Origin: a virus
Direction: 5' to 3' (one strand)
Length of the DNA: 28,111 bases
IMG/VR virus record: IMGVR_UViG_3300023196_001028
Coordinates: 1-28,111 of that record
Shown here: piece by piece, positions 2,777-28,111 of the stretch
How positions within the stretch are numbered: position 1 is the stretch's first letter
Layout of the letters: every line of letters begins with the position of its first letter
Program-made: the position numbers and the translations under genes
Notes under the pieces: model-generated
Databases searched by the model: none
Told to the model about the DNA's origin: nothing
The model's input: only the letters and a program-made list of their open reading frames with translations

Positions 2777-3013
2777 TCATAAAAACCTAATTGTCTCAAC
2801 AATCGCTTCGCAATCGCTCATTATGTCGTCTAATTCATCTCTAAGAACATCGTCGTATTGTCCATCATCTTCAACCCATACCTCACCGTAAATTTCTTCA
2901 CCCGTGCATTCGTTGTATATCCTTACACCATACGAAGTAGGTGCCCCAGCATAAGGGTAATCCTGTACCCTGACATCCCAATCATCTAAAAAGTCTTGTG
3001 CAGTGTATGCCAT
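2777..3013 (-). CDS. Small acidic protein 1 of the acidic array
   Basis: The product has 78 residues with 21 acidic and 4 basic side chains (net near -17), including paired Asp residues (QDFLDDWDV near the N-terminus and RDELDDIMSD near the C-terminus). The central part looks like strands (YGVRIYNECTGEEIYGEVWV). It starts one base after the stop of the ArdA-like gene and lacks the leader used by the others, so it is probably translated by coupling to that gene. Function is unknown, but tight coupling to ArdA makes an anti-defence role plausible. Confidence 0.6.
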   Translation of the reverse strand: MAYTAQDFLDDWDVRVQDYPYAGAPTSYGVRIYNECTGEEIYGEVWVEDDGQYDDVLRDELDDIMSDCEAIVETIRFL

Positions 3014-3014
3014 A

Positions 3015-3749
3015 TTATGCGTTTGTATAAATCAAAACTGGATTGCTGGGCGTTCCGTACTGATCGTATTCATAACTTAAATCCTTTGCAAATTTTTCAT
3101 AGTCGAAATAATCTGCTATTGTTTTATCTCCTAATTCCGTCAAGTCTCCTAAGTAATCATAGACGTACCACTCACCAACCTTTTTTTCTCCCCTGCTTAC
3201 TAGATCGTCGTATTCTTTTTCAGCCTGTTCGTAGCTGTCAAATCTATCTTCCCATTCATCAATTATAATCATTGACAAATCTCCGCTAATCTCTAAGTCT
3301 CTTCCAAACTTCTCGTAATCAAAATAATTCTCTGCTTGGTCGTCGCTCAGTCCAATCTGGTCAACGATATGATAGGCCCACTCTAATAAGGTAAATTGCC
3401 CCATAAATGCATCGTCAAATCGTGTTTGAAATTCATCTGAATCCCACCCAAAATCATCTTTGATTAATAGCAGTACAGATAACTGAACATTTAATAAATC
3501 AGCAGTTTCAAACATTTGTTTGTACCCATCCCATGCACCTTCATCCAAACCATAATCGACAATATCTCGGTCCAAAAATCCCTCCCAATCTACAGGTTCA
3601 CAATCATCGCTTCCTCGCATTTCTTTCTCTGCTCCAATAGCATCCTGGAAATCGTCCCAACTGTTGTAAGTTAAAGGTGCTAGTTGAAAATCATCACTAG
3701 TCACATCATTTGTGCGAAACCAGATAATATAGTCTTTTGGATCGTTCAT
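3015..3749 (-). CDS. ardA: ArdA-like antirestriction protein with duplicated signature motif
   Basis: This 244-residue, very acidic protein resembles plasmid ArdA, a DNA mimic that blocks type I restriction enzymes by imitating bent B-DNA. Matches visible by eye are DWEGF at 54-58, a middle region with MGQFTLLEWAYHIVDQIG (116-133) equivalent to ArdA's GRFDSWRDFAYY segment, and YFDYEKFGRDL at 142-152, the ArdA C-terminal signature. Plasmid ArdA is about 165-170 residues and ends soon after that signature. This one continues and repeats it as YFDYEKFAKDL at 214-224, after a Glu/Asp-rich linker (165-190). It heads the run of small acidic proteins and lies just after the prohead protease. The assignment comes from remembered family sequence rather than a search. 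Confidence 0.8.
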   Translation of the reverse strand: MNDPKDYIIWFRTNDVTSDDFQLAPLTYNSWDDFQDAIGAEKEMRGSDDCEPVDWEGFLDRDIVDYGLDEGAWDGYKQMFETADLLNVQLSVLLLIKDDFGWDSDEFQTRFDDAFMGQFTLLEWAYHIVDQIGLSDDQAENYFDYEKFGRDLEISGDLSMIIIDEWEDRFDSYEQAEKEYDDLVSRGEKKVGEWYVYDYLGDLTELGDKTIADYFDYEKFAKDLSYEYDQYGTPSNPVLIYTNA

Positions 3750-3776
3750 TGCTGCAATATATCTATTAATAGTGTA

Positions 3777-4768: not shown

Positions 4769-6505
4769 TTACAAAACTGTTTGCTCCTCTAGCTTCGATG
4801 CCATAGCCATCTGTCCTTGTAGCTGACTCTGTACTACATAAGCCTGCATACTGTCTGGTGTATCTAACCTGGCTGGTAACGGTGTTTGAATGTTTGGGCT
4901 TGGGCCAAAGCCTCCTCGCGTGCCTCCTCCTCCTCCACCTCCTCCACCAGTGCTGCCTCCGTTGTATTCCTGGTTCTTTATTTGCTTTACTCTTACCAGG
5001 CCAGCCGCTACCGCTGCTGCCGCTGCCAATGTACCTCGTAATGGTGCCGTAGGATCTGTAGGCACTGGCATAAATTGAGAGGTGTAAGCCTTCTGTGCCG
5101 AGAAATACGTGCTAATCAAAGCCTCTGCTATGCTTAATTTTTTCTGTCGATCAAATGCTTGCTTGCTGTCCTTCTCTCCTTTCTTTGTAAACAGCGTATT
5201 CAGGCTTTGGATCGTGTCCAAAGTGTTCATGACGTTCTGCTCTTGCAAACTCAAGGCTTCTTGTTTGCCTCGTACAATATCTTGATCAGCTTTTAGTGCA
5301 TCATCCTTTGCTTTTTCCGCATCGGCTTTTGCTTTTGCAGCATCCCGTTCTGCTTGTTCTTCACGTTTTATCCTAAACTGTTCCGTCAGTTCCTCAGTAT
5401 CTAATTCGTACTGACGTTGCAAAGCAAGTAATTCACCATATCCAGCGTCTCTAGCTTCTAACTCTGCTTGGGCATCTTTGTATTGCATTTCACGTTTACG
5501 CTTGGCCCTAGCTTCTTCATCTTCTATACCTCTAAGTTCCAGATCGCGCTGTATGGCCAGCAGTTTTGCAGCCCTAAATTCAGCATCTGCTTCTCTTTTT
5601 GCCGCATTTTTATCTCTTACTCTTTGTGCTTCATCTTCCGCTTTTTGCGCGTTATCCTTTGCGCGTAGTGTATATCCTGCGCGTTGGTTCTCCAGCTTTA
5701 ATAATGCCTCTTCAGCCTTCTTAATTGCCTCGTCTCCGCTTTCTTCTACGCCTTTAGGATCAAAAAGGTAATCACCAACGCCTTTATACAAGCCTTCTGC
5801 TAAATTTGTTTTCTCTGCTAAAAGACCAATCCTTACCAATCCTGCACTTAATTGGTCTATACCAACTAATGCTGCTGCTATTGGCGCAGTAATAAACATT
5901 AAAAGACCTGCTACTACATCACTTGCTGTTTGTGCTGCTTTAGTTTGTTCTTCCTTTTGCGTTTTTAAAGACTCAATCATAATCCTTTGCGCTGCAATGG
6001 CCTCATCTGTAGCAGCCATGCGCATTGCTAGAATGTCTTCTTCTGTATTACCCTGTAGTTTTAGGATATTCTCCTGTGCAGATATGTTATCTAGCTGCTC
6101 CTTGCTGCTTTCCACTAACTCCTGGCCATACTTTACTTGCTCTTTGGTTTCGTCCGTTGCACTCGTAATTGATCCCGATATAGCATCCCAGTTCGCTACT
6201 ATCTCTCCCAATGCCACTACAAGCAATCCTAGGCCCGTAGCTGCAATGGCTCCCTTAAGAGCAGTGAAACTCTTCGATAGCCTGCCGATCTGCCGTTGTG
6301 CGCCTTTAAATCCACGAACAGTGCTTTGTAATCCACGCGGCAAAAGGCTGCTAAACAAATCGCCAAATTGCGAAAAGTCCTTGGTTGACTTCTTTCCTAC
6401 CCTTTCTGTTTCTTTGCCCAGGTTACGAACGGCCCTAGTCGTTTTCTTAATGGGGCCAGTAGCTTTTTCAGTGCTGACTATGTTAATGTTTAGGGTGTTC
6501 GCCAT
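4769..6505 (-). CDS. Tail tape measure protein
   Basis: The product has 578 residues. The N-terminal 80 residues are basic and helical, a hydrophobic segment lies at about 83-102 (ALKGAIAATGLGLLVVALGE) followed by the typical ANWDAI, and a second hydrophobic stretch lies at about 195-220. A long coiled-coil region rich in Ala, Glu, Lys and Arg spans about 255-420. Near the C-terminus is a run of nine glycines (about residues 520-530). This is the usual architecture of a phage tape measure, which sets tail length and is threaded in the tail lumen. At roughly 1.5 angstrom per residue it would specify a rather short tail, under about 90 nm. It is unusual that it lies downstream of the large tail-tip genes rather than before them. 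Confidence 0.85.
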   Translation of the reverse strand: MANTLNINIVSTEKATGPIKKTTRAVRNLGKETERVGKKSTKDFSQFGDLFSSLLPRGLQSTVRGFKGAQRQIGRLSKSFTALKGAIAATGLGLLVVALGEIVANWDAISGSITSATDETKEQVKYGQELVESSKEQLDNISAQENILKLQGNTEEDILAMRMAATDEAIAAQRIMIESLKTQKEEQTKAAQTASDVVAGLLMFITAPIAAALVGIDQLSAGLVRIGLLAEKTNLAEGLYKGVGDYLFDPKGVEESGDEAIKKAEEALLKLENQRAGYTLRAKDNAQKAEDEAQRVRDKNAAKREADAEFRAAKLLAIQRDLELRGIEDEEARAKRKREMQYKDAQAELEARDAGYGELLALQRQYELDTEELTEQFRIKREEQAERDAAKAKADAEKAKDDALKADQDIVRGKQEALSLQEQNVMNTLDTIQSLNTLFTKKGEKDSKQAFDRQKKLSIAEALISTYFSAQKAYTSQFMPVPTDPTAPLRGTLAAAAAVAAGLVRVKQIKNQEYNGGSTGGGGGGGGGTRGGFGPSPNIQTPLPARLDTPDSMQAYVVQSQLQGQMAMASKLEEQTVL

Positions 6506-9748: not shown

Positions 9749-11130
9749 GCGTTGGGCCTTCTTCGGCTAATTTCAACGTTTACCTTATAACTTTCCAGGC
9801 CATCATTAACGGCCTTTGTATATCTAATCTGGCTCTCTCTAACTACTACCTGCACAGTTCCTTCAAATTGACCAGTCGGTTCAGAAAAACCCAAATCTCT
9901 ACCATTAAGATAAACACGTTCAGAATTTAACAGCGACTGAATCAAAGGTTTTAATATCTCTGGATCACCGTTTGCTGTACTTAATTCTAGGGTTGTAGTT
10001 GTCTGGATTCGGCCTGATCGCATTCCTCCCTGGTAACTCTTTTTGATATAGTCATTGTAACCAATGCCAGTAGCACTAAAGCTATTGCCTCCTGATGTTC
10101 GATACGCTGACTTTTTCATCTCCTGGCTTTGCATTGATTTACCCGTAAACGGTAGCGCATCGACTCCTCCTTTGCTATTCCACCAATATAATTGGTAATT
10201 ACTGTCCATGAATCTTGTGCAGGGTAAGCGTTCAAATCTGTAAATAATGCTTCTTTCATTACCTGCCAGTGTTGTGCTACTAGCCATCTGTATATCGTAA
10301 TGCGTCCAGCCTGTATGCTGTGATGGTCTTAAGGTATTGTCAATCGTTTGAGCATCTAAATTCAGAGGACCTGTTCCTACGTACAAAAGGCTTTGCTCGT
10401 CCGTCAAACCTGCGGCTGGTGCCTTCCCTCCATTAGCTGTAGAGTTTTCAATATAACCCGTGCCTAACAGTGTATTTTCATTGTAGTATGTAATGTGCAT
10501 ATATGCAGGACCTGAAGATCCAACATCATCGCCATTTAAAAATGCTAACGCTGCCCTCGATTTGTAAAAAGTTGAATACTGTACAGGGTACCTGACTAGC
10601 GTACCATATCCAAGAGCAGCGTCAGATAAAAAATACTTGCGATCGGCCAGCATTTTGTATTGATTAGCAGCATTTGTAAGCAATGGCAAATTAGAATTTG
10701 ATGTCTGAAAAGAACCGTTTACTACAAAAACGCTTTGCGTAGTTCCTGGTTCAATTACTTCAACAGGAGGCTGGCCTGCCGTGACTGTATACTCATAACC
10801 AAAATTTGTAGTGACTGTAATTAAAGCCGATGTGTTCAGAGCAAAGATCTTCGTAGGATCGTAATTTCCATTAAGTAAGGTAGAACCAAGTCCAAAAGGC
10901 ATTTCATCTTGTTGCACATACGCTTTAGCTATATCGCTAATTTCAAATACGGCTGCACCGCCATTGTTAGGTAGTTGCTTCATTGAAATTACTACAGCCC
11001 CATTTATAGTTACTTGGCAAACAAACCTATAGTTTGGTTGCGCAATCTGGCCAGCATCGTGTACTACATAGATAAGTTCATCCCATGCTCCCTGTACTCC
11101 TGTAGTTGTTTGTTCAACAGTATATGCCAT
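9745..11130 (-). CDS. Putative distal tail / tail-tip protein
   Basis: The product has 461 residues and is rich in Asn, Thr, Gly and Tyr, with a strand-rich pattern throughout. The N-terminus (AYTVEQTTTGVQGAWDELIY) and C-terminus (LESYKVNVEISRRRPNA) resemble a conserved Bacteroidota phage tail protein found next to the hub protein. No enzymatic motif, cysteine cluster or membrane segment is evident. It lies between the tail completion proteins and the 1029-residue tail-tip protein and overlaps both by a few bases. A Dit-like role joining the tail tube to the tip is the best guess. It could instead be a minor tail or fibre-attachment protein. Confidence 0.5.
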   Translation of the reverse strand: MAYTVEQTTTGVQGAWDELIYVVHDAGQIAQPNYRFVCQVTINGAVVISMKQLPNNGGAAVFEISDIAKAYVQQDEMPFGLGSTLLNGNYDPTKIFALNTSALITVTTNFGYEYTVTAGQPPVEVIEPGTTQSVFVVNGSFQTSNSNLPLLTNAANQYKMLADRKYFLSDAALGYGTLVRYPVQYSTFYKSRAALAFLNGDDVGSSGPAYMHITYYNENTLLGTGYIENSTANGGKAPAAGLTDEQSLLYVGTGPLNLDAQTIDNTLRPSQHTGWTHYDIQMASSTTLAGNERSIIYRFERLPCTRFMDSNYQLYWWNSKGGVDALPFTGKSMQSQEMKKSAYRTSGGNSFSATGIGYNDYIKKSYQGGMRSGRIQTTTTLELSTANGDPEILKPLIQSLLNSERVYLNGRDLGFSEPTGQFEGTVQVVVRESQIRYTKAVNDGLESYKVNVEISRRRPNA

Positions 11131-11786
11131 TATAGTTCAATGTTAATTGTATAGGTGCCAGCTAGATTTTCTTCAATGTATTGATTTACATCTTGTCCTA
11201 CTGCGACTGCTAAACGTGCTTTTGTTTGTTTGTACCCTTTATCAATTGCCAGGGTATAGTAGTTCGAAGGGGCTATGCCATACTTCCAAACCGAGGAGGT
11301 GATCATGCTTACTAATCTTTTGCGCGGAATAAACCTGCCCTTTGCATCTCGTATAGGTCCAACAGGTTTACGTACTACCCACCGATCTATACCACCTCGA
11401 ATGCTACCTGGCCCACCCTGGCCCGACCCAAATTTGTATGGACTTTTTGGTGCGCGGTTTTCGTATGGCAACGTGCCTTTTCCGCTTGGGTTTTTAGGCG
11501 GTCCATAAGGCCCTGCACCTTGTACTCCCTGGTTCACAAAGTCCCAATATGCAGCACCTGCGGCAAACTCTAAAGTCATAGAATCTTTGCCCGTGTCTAC
11601 TACGTAATACAGACTATCTCTTAATTCACCGCTGACTACTTTACCCTGCTTATCTAGTTCTTGCTGTGCTTCTTCTACTACTACTGCGCCCAAACGATCC
11701 ATAGCTTTCCGCAGGCGCGTTAGCTTCAGATTGTAGATTTCATCGTCTACTTCGATCTTTAGTGTTAGAGGCTCAGAAAGGGGCAT
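11130..11786 (-). CDS. HK97 gp10-like tail completion / neck protein
   Basis: I choose the ATG at 11786 (218 residues) over a possible start at 11894, because the extra 36 residues would overlap the upstream gene by 122 bases and look out of frame. This start leaves a 14-base overlap. The segment RKAMDRLGAVVVEEAQQELD followed by VVSGELRDSLYYVV and FAAGAAYWDFVNQGVQG follows the HK97 gp10 family pattern: a helix, a [S/T]G-[E/x]LR-[D/x]S turn, then a Y-x-x-[F/Y]V-[E/N]-G motif. The C-terminal half has a basic Gly/Pro-rich stretch and a helix. Gp10-type proteins join heads to tails or complete tails in the neck region. Its position after the tail chaperone and the 153-residue protein fits. Confidence 0.6.
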   Translation of the reverse strand: MPLSEPLTLKIEVDDEIYNLKLTRLRKAMDRLGAVVVEEAQQELDKQGKVVSGELRDSLYYVVDTGKDSMTLEFAAGAAYWDFVNQGVQGAGPYGPPKNPSGKGTLPYENRAPKSPYKFGSGQGGPGSIRGGIDRWVVRKPVGPIRDAKGRFIPRKRLVSMITSSVWKYGIAPSNYYTLAIDKGYKQTKARLAVAVGQDVNQYIEENLAGTYTINIEL

Positions 11787-12234
11787 CACATAAATTGATA
11801 GCGTTGGGCAGTCGAATCTCAAAAGACGCTGACCAGCCCGTAAGTAGGTTGTCAAAACGTGCCGTAAACGGATCACAGATAATCGGTAAATCAAATCCCC
11901 ATTTGCTATCTACTGTGGTATTGCCGTCATATACTGCAAAATGAAATTTAGCTGCCACGTCATTTAGGATAAGAAACGTTTCGCTGTACACCTGAGTCAG
12001 AAATTCTTCTTGCTTTTCTATAACCAAGTCAGCTACCATCACCTCGTACGTAAATACCGTAACACCGCTATTTAAATCTGCGCTTGTGCATTGAGCGTAT
12101 AGCAGAGGGAATTTGTTTACGTCCAGCTTATCTACGTCCATGCGATCCAGGCCGCCCGTGTCAAATGATTTTAGCTGCTTATGCTCTGTAGCTATTGCCT
12201 CGAAGGTGTTGTTTATGTCTACAATTGTATACAT
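11773..12234 (-). CDS. Putative tail terminator / tail completion protein
   Basis: The product has 153 residues. It has an N-terminal helix (IVDINNTFEAIATEHKQLKS), then strand-rich segments with FPLLYAQCTSADL and VTVFTYEVMVADLV, and a C-terminal strand pattern TGWSASFEIRLPN ending in LCDAPF. This layout is the one I recall for a conserved Bacteroidota phage protein next to gp10-like and chaperone genes. The size and alpha/beta pattern are compatible with a tail terminator that caps the tube. Its start overlaps the end of the frameshifted chaperone frame by one base. The function is inferred from context. Confidence 0.45.
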   Translation of the reverse strand: MYTIVDINNTFEAIATEHKQLKSFDTGGLDRMDVDKLDVNKFPLLYAQCTSADLNSGVTVFTYEVMVADLVIEKQEEFLTQVYSETFLILNDVAAKFHFAVYDGNTTVDSKWGFDLPIICDPFTARFDNLLTGWSASFEIRLPNAINLCDAPF

Positions 12235-12982
12235 CAGATTTTCACTTTATCGCGCAGGTTAAGGTCTTTTTCATAAGCCATAAATGTAAGGGCCTCATCT
12301 ATGTATATACGTTCTACCTGATTCATTTTAGTTATATCGCCTTGGGCCAATTGATACATTAAACCGTACCATCCCCATTTCGAATGTACTTTATCCTCTT
12401 GCCCTTCTTCGGTAGCTTCTGATCTTTTGTTAAATAGGGTTGCATAGTGGTAGACAATACCTCGGCTATGTCGCAAAAAAAAACCACTGCACCCACTACT
12501 ACATCCATCGGGCATTTTAGCATCGCCTCTTCTCTGTCTTTGCTTGGCTCGTACCTTTCTATCTCGTACATACCATTTTTGGATTTTGTGATTGGCCTAT
12601 ACATTACCGACATGATCTTCTCCAGGTATTCAAACATACCCTGGTTGCACATCGTTTCTAAATCGGCATACTCACCCACCGTTAATTTTGTCCAGTCGGG
12701 AATGAATCCGTACTCTACGCTATCAATTTTGACATGGTGCTTCACCTTCGTGTTACTTACAAACGGATCAGGTTCACTGAGCAACCAGTTCATTTTACTG
12801 CTTGCTTCTTCTATGTCCTCCCACGCAGCATCGGCTAAAGTGTTTCGTTCTACGCCTGACAATATTTCAATAGCCCTGCGTTGTGCGTGCAATGCGTCTT
12901 GGTGCTTCTCGTATTCAGCCCAAAGTTCTTTGTACTGCCGCACCGATATTTCGGTGTAGTCTTCTGGTAATGATATTTTCAT
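12234..12982 (-). CDS. Tail assembly chaperone GT-type fusion made by -1 frameshift
   Basis: This entry is the predicted frameshift product, about 249 residues. Ribosomes read 169 codons from 12982, slip back one base on T TTT TTT (12482-12476) and continue in the -1 frame to the stop at 12234. The added 80 residues include SKWGWYGLMYQLAQGD and a helical end (IYIDEALTFMAYEKDLN), which looks like a genuine tail-chaperone T domain. The -1 frame has no good independent start before the WGWY part except an ATG at 12515, upstream of the slip site. In lambda and many siphoviruses, gpG/gpGT are made in this way and recruit the tail tube to the tape measure. The -1 residues just after the slip site look less natural than the zero frame, so the exact site is less sure than the principle. 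Confidence 0.6.
12359..12982 (-). CDS. Tail assembly chaperone, G-type (zero-frame product)
   Basis: The product has 207 residues. Helical segments contain the pattern DWTKLTVGEYADLETMC (about 96-112), a YRPI motif with YEIERYEPSKD (about 127-147), and a hydrophobic helix GAVVFFCDIAEVL (about 163-175). This pattern matches a conserved Bacteroidota phage protein located between terminase or head genes and tail genes. It overlaps the TerL stop by four bases. The end (residues 169-207) overlaps a -1 frame that carries a second conserved-looking domain, the arrangement of G/GT tail chaperones. G alone and the GT fusion are both expected and neither would remain in the virion. Confidence 0.65.
   Translation of the reverse strand: MKISLPEDYTEISVRQYKELWAEYEKHQDALHAQRRAIEILSGVERNTLADAAWEDIEEASSKMNWLLSEPDPFVSNTKVKHHVKIDSVEYGFIPDWTKLTVGEYADLETMCNQGMFEYLEKIMSVMYRPITKSKNGMYEIERYEPSKDREEAMLKCPMDVVVGAVVFFCDIAEVLSTTMQPYLTKDQKLPKKGKRIKYIRNGDGTV
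12475..12483 (-). promoter_or_regulatory. Slippery T9 run, candidate -1 ribosomal frameshift site
   Basis: The minus strand reads GTG GTT TTT TTT TGC in the zero frame, so it contains the canonical -1 heptamer T TTT TTT (12482 down to 12476) inside nine consecutive T residues. It lies within the 157-base overlap of the two chaperone frames. RNA polymerase slippage on the T9 tract could give the same result, and a homopolymer length error in the assembly is an alternative. Confidence 0.6.
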
Positions 12983-14130
12983 CGGATGGTATAGGTTCCT
13001 GTTTTACGCAGCAATTTGTTTAAGCATACATACCTCACCGCGTCAACGCTGTGATTCCATGAATCCTCTGGAACTGGTAGCGTACGGTTATTACGATCTG
13101 TTTTCCACTTGTAGTTCCGAAATTCCTTTTGCGTGTCTAGGCTCTCTTTGTGAATATACAACTTGTGCCTTCTCATTAGGTCTATTCCTTTGCGTATGCT
13201 GTCTGGCCCTTTCTTGGCTGGCTTAATATTAAAGCCTGCCCTGTGTATCTCTTCTATGCTTTTTGGCTCTGCGCTATCTGCTACTATCTCCTCGTGCCTA
13301 CCTATGCCAATCTGCTTCAATTCTTGTATGATGTCCTGGTTAGTTAGGCCACCTGTGTATAGCTGTTCCTGGATATACAAATCTTGATCCACTCGCATAA
13401 TTTTTACTAGGCTTGTGGGATCAGAACTAAATCCCCAGTCTAAGCCCCAGGCAACAAATTTTGCATTGTCTGGTAGTTCTTCATATATGTGACTTTCAAA
13501 TATAGTAGCCTTTGATTTACCGCGTTCACCTAGGCCATACACTCGCCAATAGTTTGCATCAGTATGTTTCAGCCTCTCAATTTCTGCAACCGTTTCTTTG
13601 TTTAAATACGGGTTGTCTAGGTACGTAGTTTTGAAATAATCGCAGTCATCCCTGGTAATGATTTCATCATAAAGCCAGTGGTATTCTTCGGACGGGTTCC
13701 AATCCAGGAACAATTTATTGGTACATCTAAAGCTGACCTGGCGAAAGGTTTCCAGATCCAATTCGTTGCACTCGTTTAGAAAGGCAAAATTACGAGCAAC
13801 GCCCCTAAGTTTTTGTGGCTGATCGGCTGACATAAAACGCCATAGATTACCAAATAAAGTATACGTGTTTTCTGTCTTGTTATGGTTGCGTTCATCATAC
13901 CATTTTTCTCTTTCAAGGATGCCCAGAAAATCCCTATACACTGACGCACGCAGCGAAGGAAACGATGCTCGAATCACATCTATTACGTATCCTGCATCCT
14001 GGTAAGTGTAACACCATTGAATCAGTACAGTAAGAATTGACATGGTTTTCCCACTACGGGTGCCGCCTTGACAAGCAACGATCCGTTTCTTACTATTCAG
14101 TACGTCGTAGTATGATTTAGGCTGCTTCAC
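12979..14130 (-). CDS. terL: Terminase large subunit (TerL)
   Basis: The product has 383 residues and starts with GTG at 14130, overlapping the previous stop. The N-terminal ATPase has Walker A GGTRSGKT (22-29), Walker B FAFLNE (115-120, with catalytic Glu120), and a coupling region around 139-150 (LFLDWNPS). The C-terminal RNase H-like nuclease has GLDWGF (229-234, Asp231), VADSAEP (283-289, Asp285) and NHSVDAVRY (359-367, Asp363), so all three metal-binding acids are present. The enzyme pumps DNA into proheads through the portal and cuts the concatemer. The length is slightly below the common 400-450 residues. The portal gene is not adjacent but about 10 kb upstream in transcription order. 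Confidence 0.95.
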   Translation of the reverse strand: MKQPKSYYDVLNSKKRIVACQGGTRSGKTMSILTVLIQWCYTYQDAGYVIDVIRASFPSLRASVYRDFLGILEREKWYDERNHNKTENTYTLFGNLWRFMSADQPQKLRGVARNFAFLNECNELDLETFRQVSFRCTNKLFLDWNPSEEYHWLYDEIITRDDCDYFKTTYLDNPYLNKETVAEIERLKHTDANYWRVYGLGERGKSKATIFESHIYEELPDNAKFVAWGLDWGFSSDPTSLVKIMRVDQDLYIQEQLYTGGLTNQDIIQELKQIGIGRHEEIVADSAEPKSIEEIHRAGFNIKPAKKGPDSIRKGIDLMRRHKLYIHKESLDTQKEFRNYKWKTDRNNRTLPVPEDSWNHSVDAVRYVCLNKLLRKTGTYTIR

Positions 14131-24253: not shown

Positions 24254-24826
24254 TTATCGGTTAAAGTATTTGATTCCAACTGCGTTAGCCCACGCTTTGA
24301 TTTGGTTGTTCGTCGTGAGTCTTGGGTATACGTTGAGTCCTCCAAAATAGTTTCGTGCTGATGGTGAAAGGTCGCTTCCTGTGTTTGCCGTGTATTCGGG
24401 AAAGCTGCCTGAATTAAATTGCAAGTAGTCGATTAAACGCTCTCGGTAGAACATCCCTATTTCTTGTGATTGCTCTACTACTTTGCGTATATCCTGCATA
24501 GATGCGCTTTGACCCATTTCGCTGTTGCCTACTACTACACTATTATTTGCAAATCGAAGGCGCACTACAAAAGCAACTTCCACAAATGCCAATTGTACCA
24601 GGCATGGCTGGATGTAATCTTCTAGTAATGTTTCGTATACACCTGTAATTGAATTACTATCTATATCAGAAGAAATTTTATCTGCTAGTTGCGTACCCAA
24701 AGCTGGAAGTATCCAGCGATCCTGGGCAATCTTAATGTAAGGCTGAAGCAGGTTGTCATCTACTGCGCTGCCTAATGCCGTGTCCCTTTTTAGTAGGGTA
24801 GAACTTATGTATAGTGTGGTTGCCAT
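24254..24826 (-). CDS. Head-tail connector protein, DUF6712-like
   Basis: The product has 190 residues. The pattern LYISSTLLKRDTALGSAVDD, then LQPYIKIAQDRWILPALGTQ, LLEDYIQPCLVQLAFVEVAF and YRERLIDYLQFNSGSFPEY matches a helical Bacteroidota phage family I know as DUF6712, found directly after the portal. It probably closes the portal channel and links head to tail. It overlaps the portal by one base. A 66-base gap follows before the fibre gene; I see only a weak hairpin there. Confidence 0.7.
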   Translation of the reverse strand: MATTLYISSTLLKRDTALGSAVDDNLLQPYIKIAQDRWILPALGTQLADKISSDIDSNSITGVYETLLEDYIQPCLVQLAFVEVAFVVRLRFANNSVVVGNSEMGQSASMQDIRKVVEQSQEIGMFYRERLIDYLQFNSGSFPEYTANTGSDLSPSARNYFGGLNVYPRLTTNNQIKAWANAVGIKYFNR

Positions 24827-26823
24827 TATCCGTATTTTAAAGATCCTCTGCTTGCAGTATCAATGGGTGCTACCAGTTCAAAACCTGGCTGTTCAATTTC
24901 AAAGTTGTTACCTACGTTGCGCATGACATCTTCCCAGGCTCCTTCAAATTCTAGATCATCCACTTCAGCTAGTTCACCTTCTGGTGCGTAGATATAAATC
25001 ATTCTGACAAAGCCATGCCTACAGTATACGCCCCCTTTCCAATCAAAGATGCTGTAGCTGCGTTCACCTGCTGGCGCAAAATCTCCGTTTACTCCATCAT
25101 CACCCATTTCAATTAAATCCTCATATCGAAATTCTAAACCATCGTTTGATAGTTCCATCATCTCTTCACAAAAATCTCTCGTTTTGTAGTTAGGATTTAC
25201 TGGTGCCGTTTGTGCCGTTTCCTCATATCGGTATCGCACAGCAAAATAGTAATTATCCCTGCTTACAATATCGCGCTCAGGGCTGACATCATCGTAATTA
25301 CTGTACTCCGTGTAGAACAGGCGCATCTTTGCTTCGTGCAAATCATGATCAAATTGTGCGTCGATCACCTGTTCAGATTTCCAAAGTGTAAAATGCTCTG
25401 GTACTTCCCTGGCCCTTTCCCTTAACTGGGGCAGCCAATCGTCACCACTTTTTTTTTTAGACATTTGCGTTTCTGCAACTGCCTCGTCTGATTCTTCTTC
25501 TTGCTCGACCTGGGCTATTGCGTCAATGCCTTGCACAAACAATGCTTCGGCTACCTCTGGCGTAAACTGAAGCATCTGCACCAAGAATACCTTAGCCTGT
25601 TCCTCTGTCAAAATACCTTCTTTGACTTTAACCAATACCTCTACAGCCGATGCAATCTGTGCGCCATTATAGCTGGCATCTTTATCACCTGTATCTGCGG
25701 AATTGGCCTGGCCCCAAAGATTCTCAACCGTAAGGAAACTAGCTGGGCGTAAAGGCTTGAAGTACAGATCCAGGGTGATGCCTGCTGCGGCAAATACAGG
25801 GCGTAGTCCGTCCAGCATTAAACGCTGGAAAGGCAATACAACTGTATTGTAAAATAAATCGTAGCTGTCCTTTAGTTCATCTGCATTTGAACCAAAGCCA
25901 CCGCCTTCATTTCTGATTCCAAAAAGCAAGGGGCTGGTAACTCTGTGACCTGATAGAATTTTTACTACTACCTCTTTGCTCAAATAGTCGAATACATTGT
26001 GCGCGTCACTTATGTTAAAACTTTCTACAGTTGGTGCGTTTTCTGCTGAGTCATTAAAAGTCATCAGAATTTTACCTGCATTAGATGCACCGCCAAACTT
26101 GTTATAGATCAGCCTTTCTAGTTCTGCTCGCTCATCCTCAGTAGGTACGCCATCATTGAAACTTAAAATTGTACTGGGGAAAAAGCCATTATTAATTTGG
26201 TTCAAATGATACTCGCCCAAAGATGAATCTACTTCGATATAGTTTGTGCTGCCTAAATAATCTGGAAGCCCGTACGAAAAACTTAGAGGATTATACAATT
26301 TGATATGCAACAATTGGCTGGCTGCTGTACGATCAGAAGTGCTAAACGCTGGTATAGCCTGTGGCTCTTTGTTGTCACTCCAATCTGCCTTATGGTAAAA
26401 AGTAGTAATTACATCTTCATCATTAGCTATTCCTGCACGGATCGTTGCTGCTGGCACATGATGTATTTCGGAGATTGTAGTTCTGTCTACGCTCCAAATA
26501 ATATTAAAATAGCACTGACCATAAAGTTTTAAGTCCAGGCTGCAACGCTTTAAGCATTTCTGATCGCCAAAGATTTGCTGCACCTTTAGCCACTGATCAA
26601 TATTAAAATCCTTGTAGATCGCATCTAGCCCTTCACCGTAGATCATTTCTGCAACACCCTTTACTACCGCGCTATGGATGCTGCTACTAACGTACAGTTC
26701 TTCCAGGTAGTGTGGGTAAAGATTATCCTTTCCCATATCTACCCATTCGCGGTTCTGACTCTCAATAAATTGAGGTGTGTTACTCGACTGGTAATTTAGG
26801 ACGTTAAAAAATTGCTTCTTCAT
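24826..26823 (-). CDS. Portal protein with C-terminal MuF-like extension
   Basis: The product has 665 residues. Residues 1-430 are a portal: an N-terminal wing (NREWVDMGKDNLYPHYLEEL), helical stem and clip regions, IHHVPAATIRAG (120-131), LYNPLSFSYGLPDYLG (176-191), and SGHRVTSPLLFGI (291-303), as in Bacteroidota phage portals. An acidic linker at 434-455 is followed by a distinct domain with KTRDFCEEMMELSNDGLEFR (547-566) and WKGGVYCRHGF (595-605). That domain resembles the cysteine/histidine motif of MuF-type or XkdF-associated minor head proteins. The portal ring is the DNA entry and exit channel at one capsid vertex. The fusion would place a minor head domain inside the capsid. Confidence 0.85.
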   Translation of the reverse strand: MKKQFFNVLNYQSSNTPQFIESQNREWVDMGKDNLYPHYLEELYVSSSIHSAVVKGVAEMIYGEGLDAIYKDFNIDQWLKVQQIFGDQKCLKRCSLDLKLYGQCYFNIIWSVDRTTISEIHHVPAATIRAGIANDEDVITTFYHKADWSDNKEPQAIPAFSTSDRTAASQLLHIKLYNPLSFSYGLPDYLGSTNYIEVDSSLGEYHLNQINNGFFPSTILSFNDGVPTEDERAELERLIYNKFGGASNAGKILMTFNDSAENAPTVESFNISDAHNVFDYLSKEVVVKILSGHRVTSPLLFGIRNEGGGFGSNADELKDSYDLFYNTVVLPFQRLMLDGLRPVFAAAGITLDLYFKPLRPASFLTVENLWGQANSADTGDKDASYNGAQIASAVEVLVKVKEGILTEEQAKVFLVQMLQFTPEVAEALFVQGIDAIAQVEQEEESDEAVAETQMSKKKSGDDWLPQLRERAREVPEHFTLWKSEQVIDAQFDHDLHEAKMRLFYTEYSNYDDVSPERDIVSRDNYYFAVRYRYEETAQTAPVNPNYKTRDFCEEMMELSNDGLEFRYEDLIEMGDDGVNGDFAPAGERSYSIFDWKGGVYCRHGFVRMIYIYAPEGELAEVDDLEFEGAWEDVMRNVGNNFEIEQPGFELVAPIDTASRGSLKYG

Positions 26824-27847: not shown

Positions 27848-28111
27848 TTAATCTGTAATTACTCCTGTATACGCTCCAACAACTACATCTGCTGGTACTC
27901 CGACTTGCATACCAGTACCAAATCGCATAGCGATCTTTACCTGGTCTGATCCGTCAAACTGCCACGCGTCAATGTACTGAGCCGAGGTGTAGTCAGTGTT
28001 CAAGTTAGAACCTACTACCAAATTCTCTTCGTATGTAAGAACCAAAGCGTCATCATACATACCTGGGCAAACGTGAATTGGAATACCGAGGTACTGCAAT
28101 GTATCAAACGC
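27848..28111 (-). CDS. Major capsid protein, C-terminal part (cut by window edge)
   Basis: The frame is open from the window edge (first in-frame codons at 28111 encode Ala-Phe-Asp-Thr) to the stop at 27848. It is therefore the end of a longer gene rather than a new start at the TTG at 28099. The sequence LGIPIHVCPGMYDDALVLTY followed by ENLVVGSNLNTDYTSAQYID and a strand-rich end (MRFGTGMQVGVPADVVVGAY) resembles the C-terminus of Bacteroidota phage capsid proteins. Together with the N-terminal piece at 1-449 it gives 237 residues, and a middle part appears to be missing. Confidence 0.72.
   Translation of the reverse strand, partial: AFDTLQYLGIPIHVCPGMYDDALVLTYEENLVVGSNLNTDYTSAQYIDAWQFDGSDQVKIAMRFGTGMQVGVPADVVVGAYTGVITD

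Follow-up and report, generated by a model that had tools for sequence, protein, structure and literature searches.

A conserved run of T residues may give a tailed phage gene two products through RNA polymerase slippage

Background

Two overlapping reading frames follow the gene for the terminase large subunit (TerL) in the window, by which we mean the whole stretch of 28,111 nt of viral DNA analysed here (IMG/VR record IMGVR_UViG_3300023196_001028). Are the two frames joined into one protein, and if so, at which step of gene expression? The initial annotation of the window took them for a lambda-type G/GT pair of tail assembly chaperones, in which a -1 frameshift would occur at a heptamer lying within nine T residues. 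Ribosomal recoding has a textbook example in G/GT frameshifting; in the lambda-type system the G part binds the tape measure and the T part binds the tail tube, and both are absent from the virion. We compared the locus with its homologues and asked what they say about the frame change, the polymer that slips and the role of the products.

Results

Layout of the locus

The features of the locus and its neighbours are, in the order of transcription:

12979..14130, minus strand: terminase large subunit (TerL), upstream neighbour (PF04466, PF17288, PHROG 2)
12476..12982, minus strand: common N-terminal domain (G-like), 169 codons, reaching to the slip site, kept in 198 distinct loci
12475..12483, minus strand: putative T9 slip run, GTT TTT TTT TGC, with an in-phase T_TTT_TTT inside
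12359..12475, minus strand: predicted C-terminal tail that the zero frame gives the short product, 38 codons plus stop, sharing its DNA with the -1 frame; zero-frame stops depleted in 82 lineages
12234..12476, minus strand: T-like domain of the -1 frame with the WGWY motif, 80 codons plus stop; in each of 188 loci its frame is -1 with respect to G
11773..12234, minus strand: next gene, 153 aa, whose ATG shares bases with the fusion stop (TGATG)
11130..11894, minus strand: HK97 gp10-like neck or tail-completion protein, downstream neighbour (PF04883, PHROG 5)
4769..6505, minus strand: tape measure protein, farther downstream on the same strand (PHROG 24676, 3336, 1538)

The zero frame is a 207-aa ORF (12982-12359, minus strand) that comes after TerL (14130-12979). 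The positions given in the initial annotation were correct: the nine Ts at 12483-12475 hold T_TTT_TTT in the zero-frame phase, 38 codons upstream of the zero-frame stop, and from the slip the -1 frame adds 80 residues including WGWY (12476-12237, minus strand; LRHSRGIVYHYATLF...KWGWYGLMYQLAQGDITKMN...). At 12234 the stop of the -1 frame overlaps the ATG of the next gene as TGATG, and an overlap of this kind is the commonest arrangement among the homologues.

At the ends of the window, the frames at 3-449 and 27848-28111 (minus) are cut and may both belong to a single capsid-like gene, in which case the genome might be circular. A direct join of the two ends did not read through, and no terminal repeat of more than 10 bases was found.

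The run and the -1 frame are conserved among homologues

The queries for searches of viral contigs were the proteins of the two frames and also alignments built from diverse members. Several hundred relatives were matched, and the best of them were retrieved for a six-frame profile search of their DNA, which found the N-terminal domain in 198 distinct loci among these best matches. Six of the 198 lack the T-run, and all six stop short of the junction. All 192 loci that span the junction have at least nine Ts at the same place, at the end of a conserved ...FF, and the run is found down to about 25% identity and across 25 to 55% GC. The C-terminal WGWY domain was recognisable in 188 of these 192, every time in the -1 frame. 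The same T9, followed by LKWGWY or LKWSWY in the -1 frame, occurs in P12024L and P12024S, two cultured Nonlabens phages from among those of marine flavobacteria.

The homologues thus agree with the programmed switch into the -1 frame that had been claimed, giving a short and a long product (188 of 188 loci and P12024L/S). The alignment that was proposed as a check finds both domains and the run kept (192 of 192 loci), and it holds no homologue with another run length and one continuous frame. On this comparative evidence the recurrence of the run is far beyond chance, and the arrangement is real, old and selected. Judging from the relatives, the window most likely belongs to a tailed phage of Bacteroidota.

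A scan of genome contigs returned no locus, and the T domains gave no match when compared with cultured phages by tblastn. Proteins of the Flavobacterium phage 6H type were considered as evidence and set aside as too distant (BFVD E 4e-5 but TM 0.41; tblastn E 0.03-0.06). The genes perhaps distantly related to the G domain are:

10352-10927, minus strand: 191-aa ORF of Flavobacterium phage 6H (L334)
2872-3753: one 293-aa ORF in phages 2A and FPSV-F7 (L336 and L335)

Between otherwise identical flanks, the 6H sequence differs from those of 2A and FPSV-F7 by about 45 bp of diverged sequence, in which the net indel is 2 nt.

No separate start for the WGWY part

The two frames could also be the result of a sequencing or assembly error, of phase variation by replication slippage, or of independent initiation of the WGWY protein. 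Homopolymers are indel-prone, and in P12024L and P12024S the C-terminal part is annotated as a gene of its own, with an ATG overlapping the zero-frame stop. Against these readings, no in-frame fusion or +1 version was found among the 188 loci and the two cultured isolates, and conservation starts directly after the run, far upstream of the ATG in P12024L/S. In the window the -1 frame has an ATG at 12515, 13 codons upstream of T9; between the slip and WGWY it has no ATG, GTG or TTG save a TTG at the slip itself. Among 82 diverged lineages, 54 lack any of these start codons over the whole -1 frame ahead of the motif, and a start codon conserved among the homologues was not found for the -1 domain. 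This bears out that the WGWY frame lacks a good start of its own after the slip, and the independent start that would have accounted for the protein was not seen. We consider an assembly indel, phase variation and an independent start to be ruled out by the homologues, leaving these readings a probability close to nil. As the C-terminal domain is always in the -1 frame, has no start of its own and is never in frame, part of the product must be a fusion made via a frame change at the run.

Both frames appear constrained after the run

Past the run, the mean length of the open zero frame is 53 codons (range 6 to 82). The expected number of zero-frame stops was obtained by randomising the -1 codons synonymously, and successive blocks of about 10 codons were counted in 82 lineages, with the +1 frame as control; it should be noted that the counts below are not phylogeny-corrected.

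Zero-frame stops, observed/expected by block: 0/44, 1/10, 7/23, 17/26, 30/86, 75/99, 123/135
+1 control stops, observed/expected by block: 108/81, 98/102, 93/98, 33/47, 70/67, 72/66, 69/78

In the first eight codons after the run, 53% of the substitutions fall at the zero-frame wobble position. Both frames appear to be constrained near the junction, so that the overlap appears to be dual coding, and the counts suggest that the short product keeps a tail. The initial annotation had found the first 25 or so residues of the -1 frame less natural than the zero frame; this did not hold, the first -1 residues being no less real than those of the zero frame. That the zero frame looks natural near the junction is accounted for by the apparent constraint on both frames.

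Run length points to the RNA polymerase

For a tandem slip of ribosomes we reasoned from the heptamer rule that T7, T8 or T9 is needed when the run starts at codon position 3, 2 or 1, respectively. The 192 loci have 147 runs of T9, 40 of T10, 2 of T11 and 3 of T12, and none shorter, distributed over the codon phases as follows:

Start at codon position 1: T9 (23), T10 (9)
Start at codon position 2: T9 (122), T10 (24), T11 (2), T12 (3)
Start at codon position 3: T9 (2), T10 (7)

Thus 160 loci are in a phase that permits 7 or 8 Ts, and not one of them has T7 or T8. Expressed as Ts added (upstream, downstream) to the heptamer, the combinations are (2,0), (2,1), (1,1) to (1,4), (0,2) and (0,3); the sum is always at least 2, fewer Ts upstream being offset by more downstream. 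If the two sides were independent, 9.3 sums below 2 would be expected among 82 lineages of <70% identity and 4.1 among 36 lineages of <50% identity (permutation P 5e-5 for the latter), and none was seen in either set; both calculations ignore relatedness. In a tree of 126 sequences we counted at least 13 changes of phase and at least 19 changes of length, the run never falling below nine. In a phylogeny-aware independent-pairs test all informative pairs agree, their number being too small for significance.

The protein sequence does not force the run, since 31% of the other Phe codons of the N-terminal domain are TTC and the residues flanking FF vary: the zero-frame residue after FF can be Y, C, W, L, F, S, T or I, and the codon before FF can be Arg, Gly, Asn or Ser. 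Folding without pseudoknots detected no conserved RNA structure at the run (mean z 0.04 for the 40 nt upstream, -0.16 and -0.23 for the 60 and 100 nt downstream), and base frequencies upstream of it gave no Shine-Dalgarno (SD)-like motif. A stimulator is not required at every -1 ribosomal frameshift site.

Transcription in bacteria slips on stretches of 9 A or T, and where homologues with overlapping frames all keep such a run of nine, this is taken as strong evidence of purposeful slippage (PMC1088944; PMC5009743). The locus has what marks programmed transcriptional realignment, namely a run of at least nine A or T kept in homologues with the same frame organisation (T9 to T12 in 192 of 192) and a length that is kept in all three codon phases. 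Of the marks of a programmed -1 ribosomal frameshift it has the in-phase X_XXY_YYZ heptamer, as T_TTT_TTT in every locus; a conserved stimulator was not seen in folding without pseudoknots.

A lambda-type ribosomal frameshift, as put forward in the initial annotation, would make the fusion by tandem tRNA slip on T_TTT_TTT, the extra Ts arising incidentally from conserved residues or from a preference for a longer U tract. This reading has the heptamer in its favour, which every run of nine holds, along with the mostly hydrophobic residues around the site and the ribosomal frameshifting described for the G/GT genes of lambda and SPP1, in SPP1 at U_UUU_UUC (PMC6316719; PMC5009743). It leaves the lack of T7 and T8 and the compensation between upstream and downstream Ts poorly accommodated, and neither a conserved downstream structure nor an SD-like element accompanies the site. 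Further, the slip lies 38 codons before the zero-frame stop (family mean 53), a distance that averages 26 nt in SEA-PHAGES chaperones (PMC10885494). We hold this reading to be rather unlikely; in the form in which it was stated, it does not explain why a run of at least nine, whatever its phase, exceeds the need of the heptamer, with no stimulator conserved.

Transcriptional slippage is favoured because the run is at least nine long at any codon position and no stimulatory RNA structure is conserved, and we conclude that RNA polymerase, not the ribosome, probably does the main slipping. Ribosomes that slip at the heptamer inside the run may contribute some of the fusion. That both processes matter, some transcripts carrying an extra U while ribosomes also shift on the long U tract, fits with the in-phase heptamer in every run and with a U tract prone to both slips; no ribosomal stimulator is conserved, however, and the comparative data give a constraint on run length that cannot separate the two contributions. 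We think such a mixture improbable, more so than a purely ribosomal shift.

An A-run in the portal gene

Only two A/T runs of at least nine occur in the window, the T9 described above and an A10 in the portal gene:

25449-25458, minus strand: A10 run (KKK), inside the portal gene at 24826-26823
Relatives of the portal A10/A11 clade: L348-L351, L354, L355, L360, L362-L366, L382, L409

Members of this clade share A10 or A11 in the linker that joins the portal to a C-terminal domain, while the surroundings diverge, and relatives outside the clade are without the portal A-run. In the five sequences that were examined, a stop comes within 2-3 codons after the run in one alternative frame and within 5-9 codons in the other. 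The arrangement resembles Thermus dnaX, and the run is a possible second, dnaX-like slippage site that would make a truncated portal; ribosomal slippage is equally possible there, as the run holds A_AAA_AAA. The portal run supports, without proving, the use of slippage by the lineage of the window.

In one portal homologue (L370) the run is A9, against A10 in close relatives, and the reading frame stops early, leaving the C-terminal domain in a different frame; this may be either a sequencing error or a real variant.

Is the gene a tail chaperone?

The N-terminal domain corresponds to PHROG 32199, which is without annotated function, and sequence and profile searches gave no curated family match of the gene to known chaperones. 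Its structure model has a pLDDT of 91 and its fold neighbours are unnamed phage proteins, apart from one annotated tail assembly chaperone with a weak match (E 0.06, probability 0.92); a fold search of the PDB with the G model gave no match with E below 4. The model of the T domain (pLDDT 65) was too poor for a fold search. Weak matches to PF06854 and PHROG 706 led to Gp15 and Gp14 of Listeria phage A118, a candidate that was rejected when hhalign with ten gp15 and ten gp14 sequences aligned found nothing.

With regard to the lambda-type system, a -1 shift that links two overlapping frames, with a short and a long product, is present in 188 of 188 loci where the C-terminal domain is recognisable and in the two cultured phages. 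The gene does not lie between the major tail protein and the tape measure; it comes directly after TerL, and the tape measure is several genes downstream. The claim of a lambda-type G/GT system therefore stands as to its two-product architecture and its operon, which fit, and lacks a sequence, profile or convincing fold link, besides the unusual position.

The two-product gene could also be real and serve in head completion, in the connector or at another assembly step. Its position directly after TerL, ahead of a small gene and the gp10-like neck gene, would suit such a role, as would the absence of homology to known chaperones and of a PDB fold match. On the other side, the making of a short and a long product by frameshifting of a single gene within a tail operon is what typifies gpG/gpGT, the weak fold match does point to a tail assembly chaperone, and no other candidate chaperone gene was seen in the window. 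We judge a role outside tail assembly to be unlikely, about as much so as the ribosomal shift, and from architecture and operon we regard a lambda-like G/GT role as tail chaperones as likely.

Discussion

The explanation that we prefer, and hold to be somewhat more likely than not, is that one gene gives two products in this tailed phage by slippage of RNA polymerase at the T-run, the products being a chaperone pair like gpG and gpGT. The polymerase would slip on the run and add one U, or lose two, in a fraction of the transcripts. Ordinary translation of the slipped transcripts would give the long fusion, and faithful transcripts would give the short protein with its zero-frame tail. The pair would be the functional counterpart of the tail assembly chaperones gpG and gpGT of lambda, with the slip frequency setting their ratio.

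In lambda (gpG/gpGT) and SPP1 (gp17.5/gp17.5*) the overlapping frames of a tail operon likewise yield a short protein along with a fusion lengthened in the -1 frame, and the site of SPP1 is also a U tract, U_UUU_UUC (PMC6316719). Here, in contrast, a run of at least nine is conserved rather than a heptamer, no homology to these systems was detected, the gene follows TerL, the overlap is long with both frames constrained, and the mechanism is probably transcriptional. The A118-type pair Gp14/Gp15 of Listeria phages likewise consists of two proteins, encoded between the major tail protein and the tape measure, the first of which is called tail assembly chaperone; it has no profile-profile similarity to the present gene.

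Thermus dnaX, Shigella mxiE and spa13, Citrobacter tssM1 and IS elements are alike in that some nine or more consecutive A or T are kept at a frame junction and one gene yields two products. For tssM1, from a tail-like type VI system, slippage makes a pair whose ratio matters (PMC4256274). Unlike these transcriptional realignment genes, the present one is a phage morphogenesis gene, with a T-run conserved throughout a whole phage family. A report of slippage for a phage tail chaperone was not found in the openly accessible papers that were searched. Another close case is that of P12024L (genes 40 and 41) and P12024S, where a homologous protein with the same T9 (CTT TTT TTT TAT) lies at the same place after TerL, and the -1 domain has WGWY in P12024L and WSWY in P12024S; GenBank, however, annotates two separate hypothetical proteins and no frameshift. 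Annotation as two hypothetical proteins can miss genes of this kind, as can frameshift finders tuned to heptamers near the zero-frame stop.

Further, we speculate that a widespread, undescribed family of phages may depend on an obligatory run of at least nine Ts, at which RNA polymerase slips to yield a G/GT-like pair whose short form ends in a dual-coded tail, and that the lineage of the window also obtains both a full-length portal and a truncated one by means of A10/A11. Taken as a whole this is a tentative reading, which we consider possible and somewhat doubtful. If both the T-run and the A10/A11 are read correctly, the stoichiometry of virion assembly would be set at transcription. As P12024L and P12024S are cultured, the idea is directly testable, and such a phage family would be a natural test set for the two mechanisms. 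If a large phage family does make its pair by slippage, this would suggest that evolution preserves the ratio of the two products and not the decoding step.
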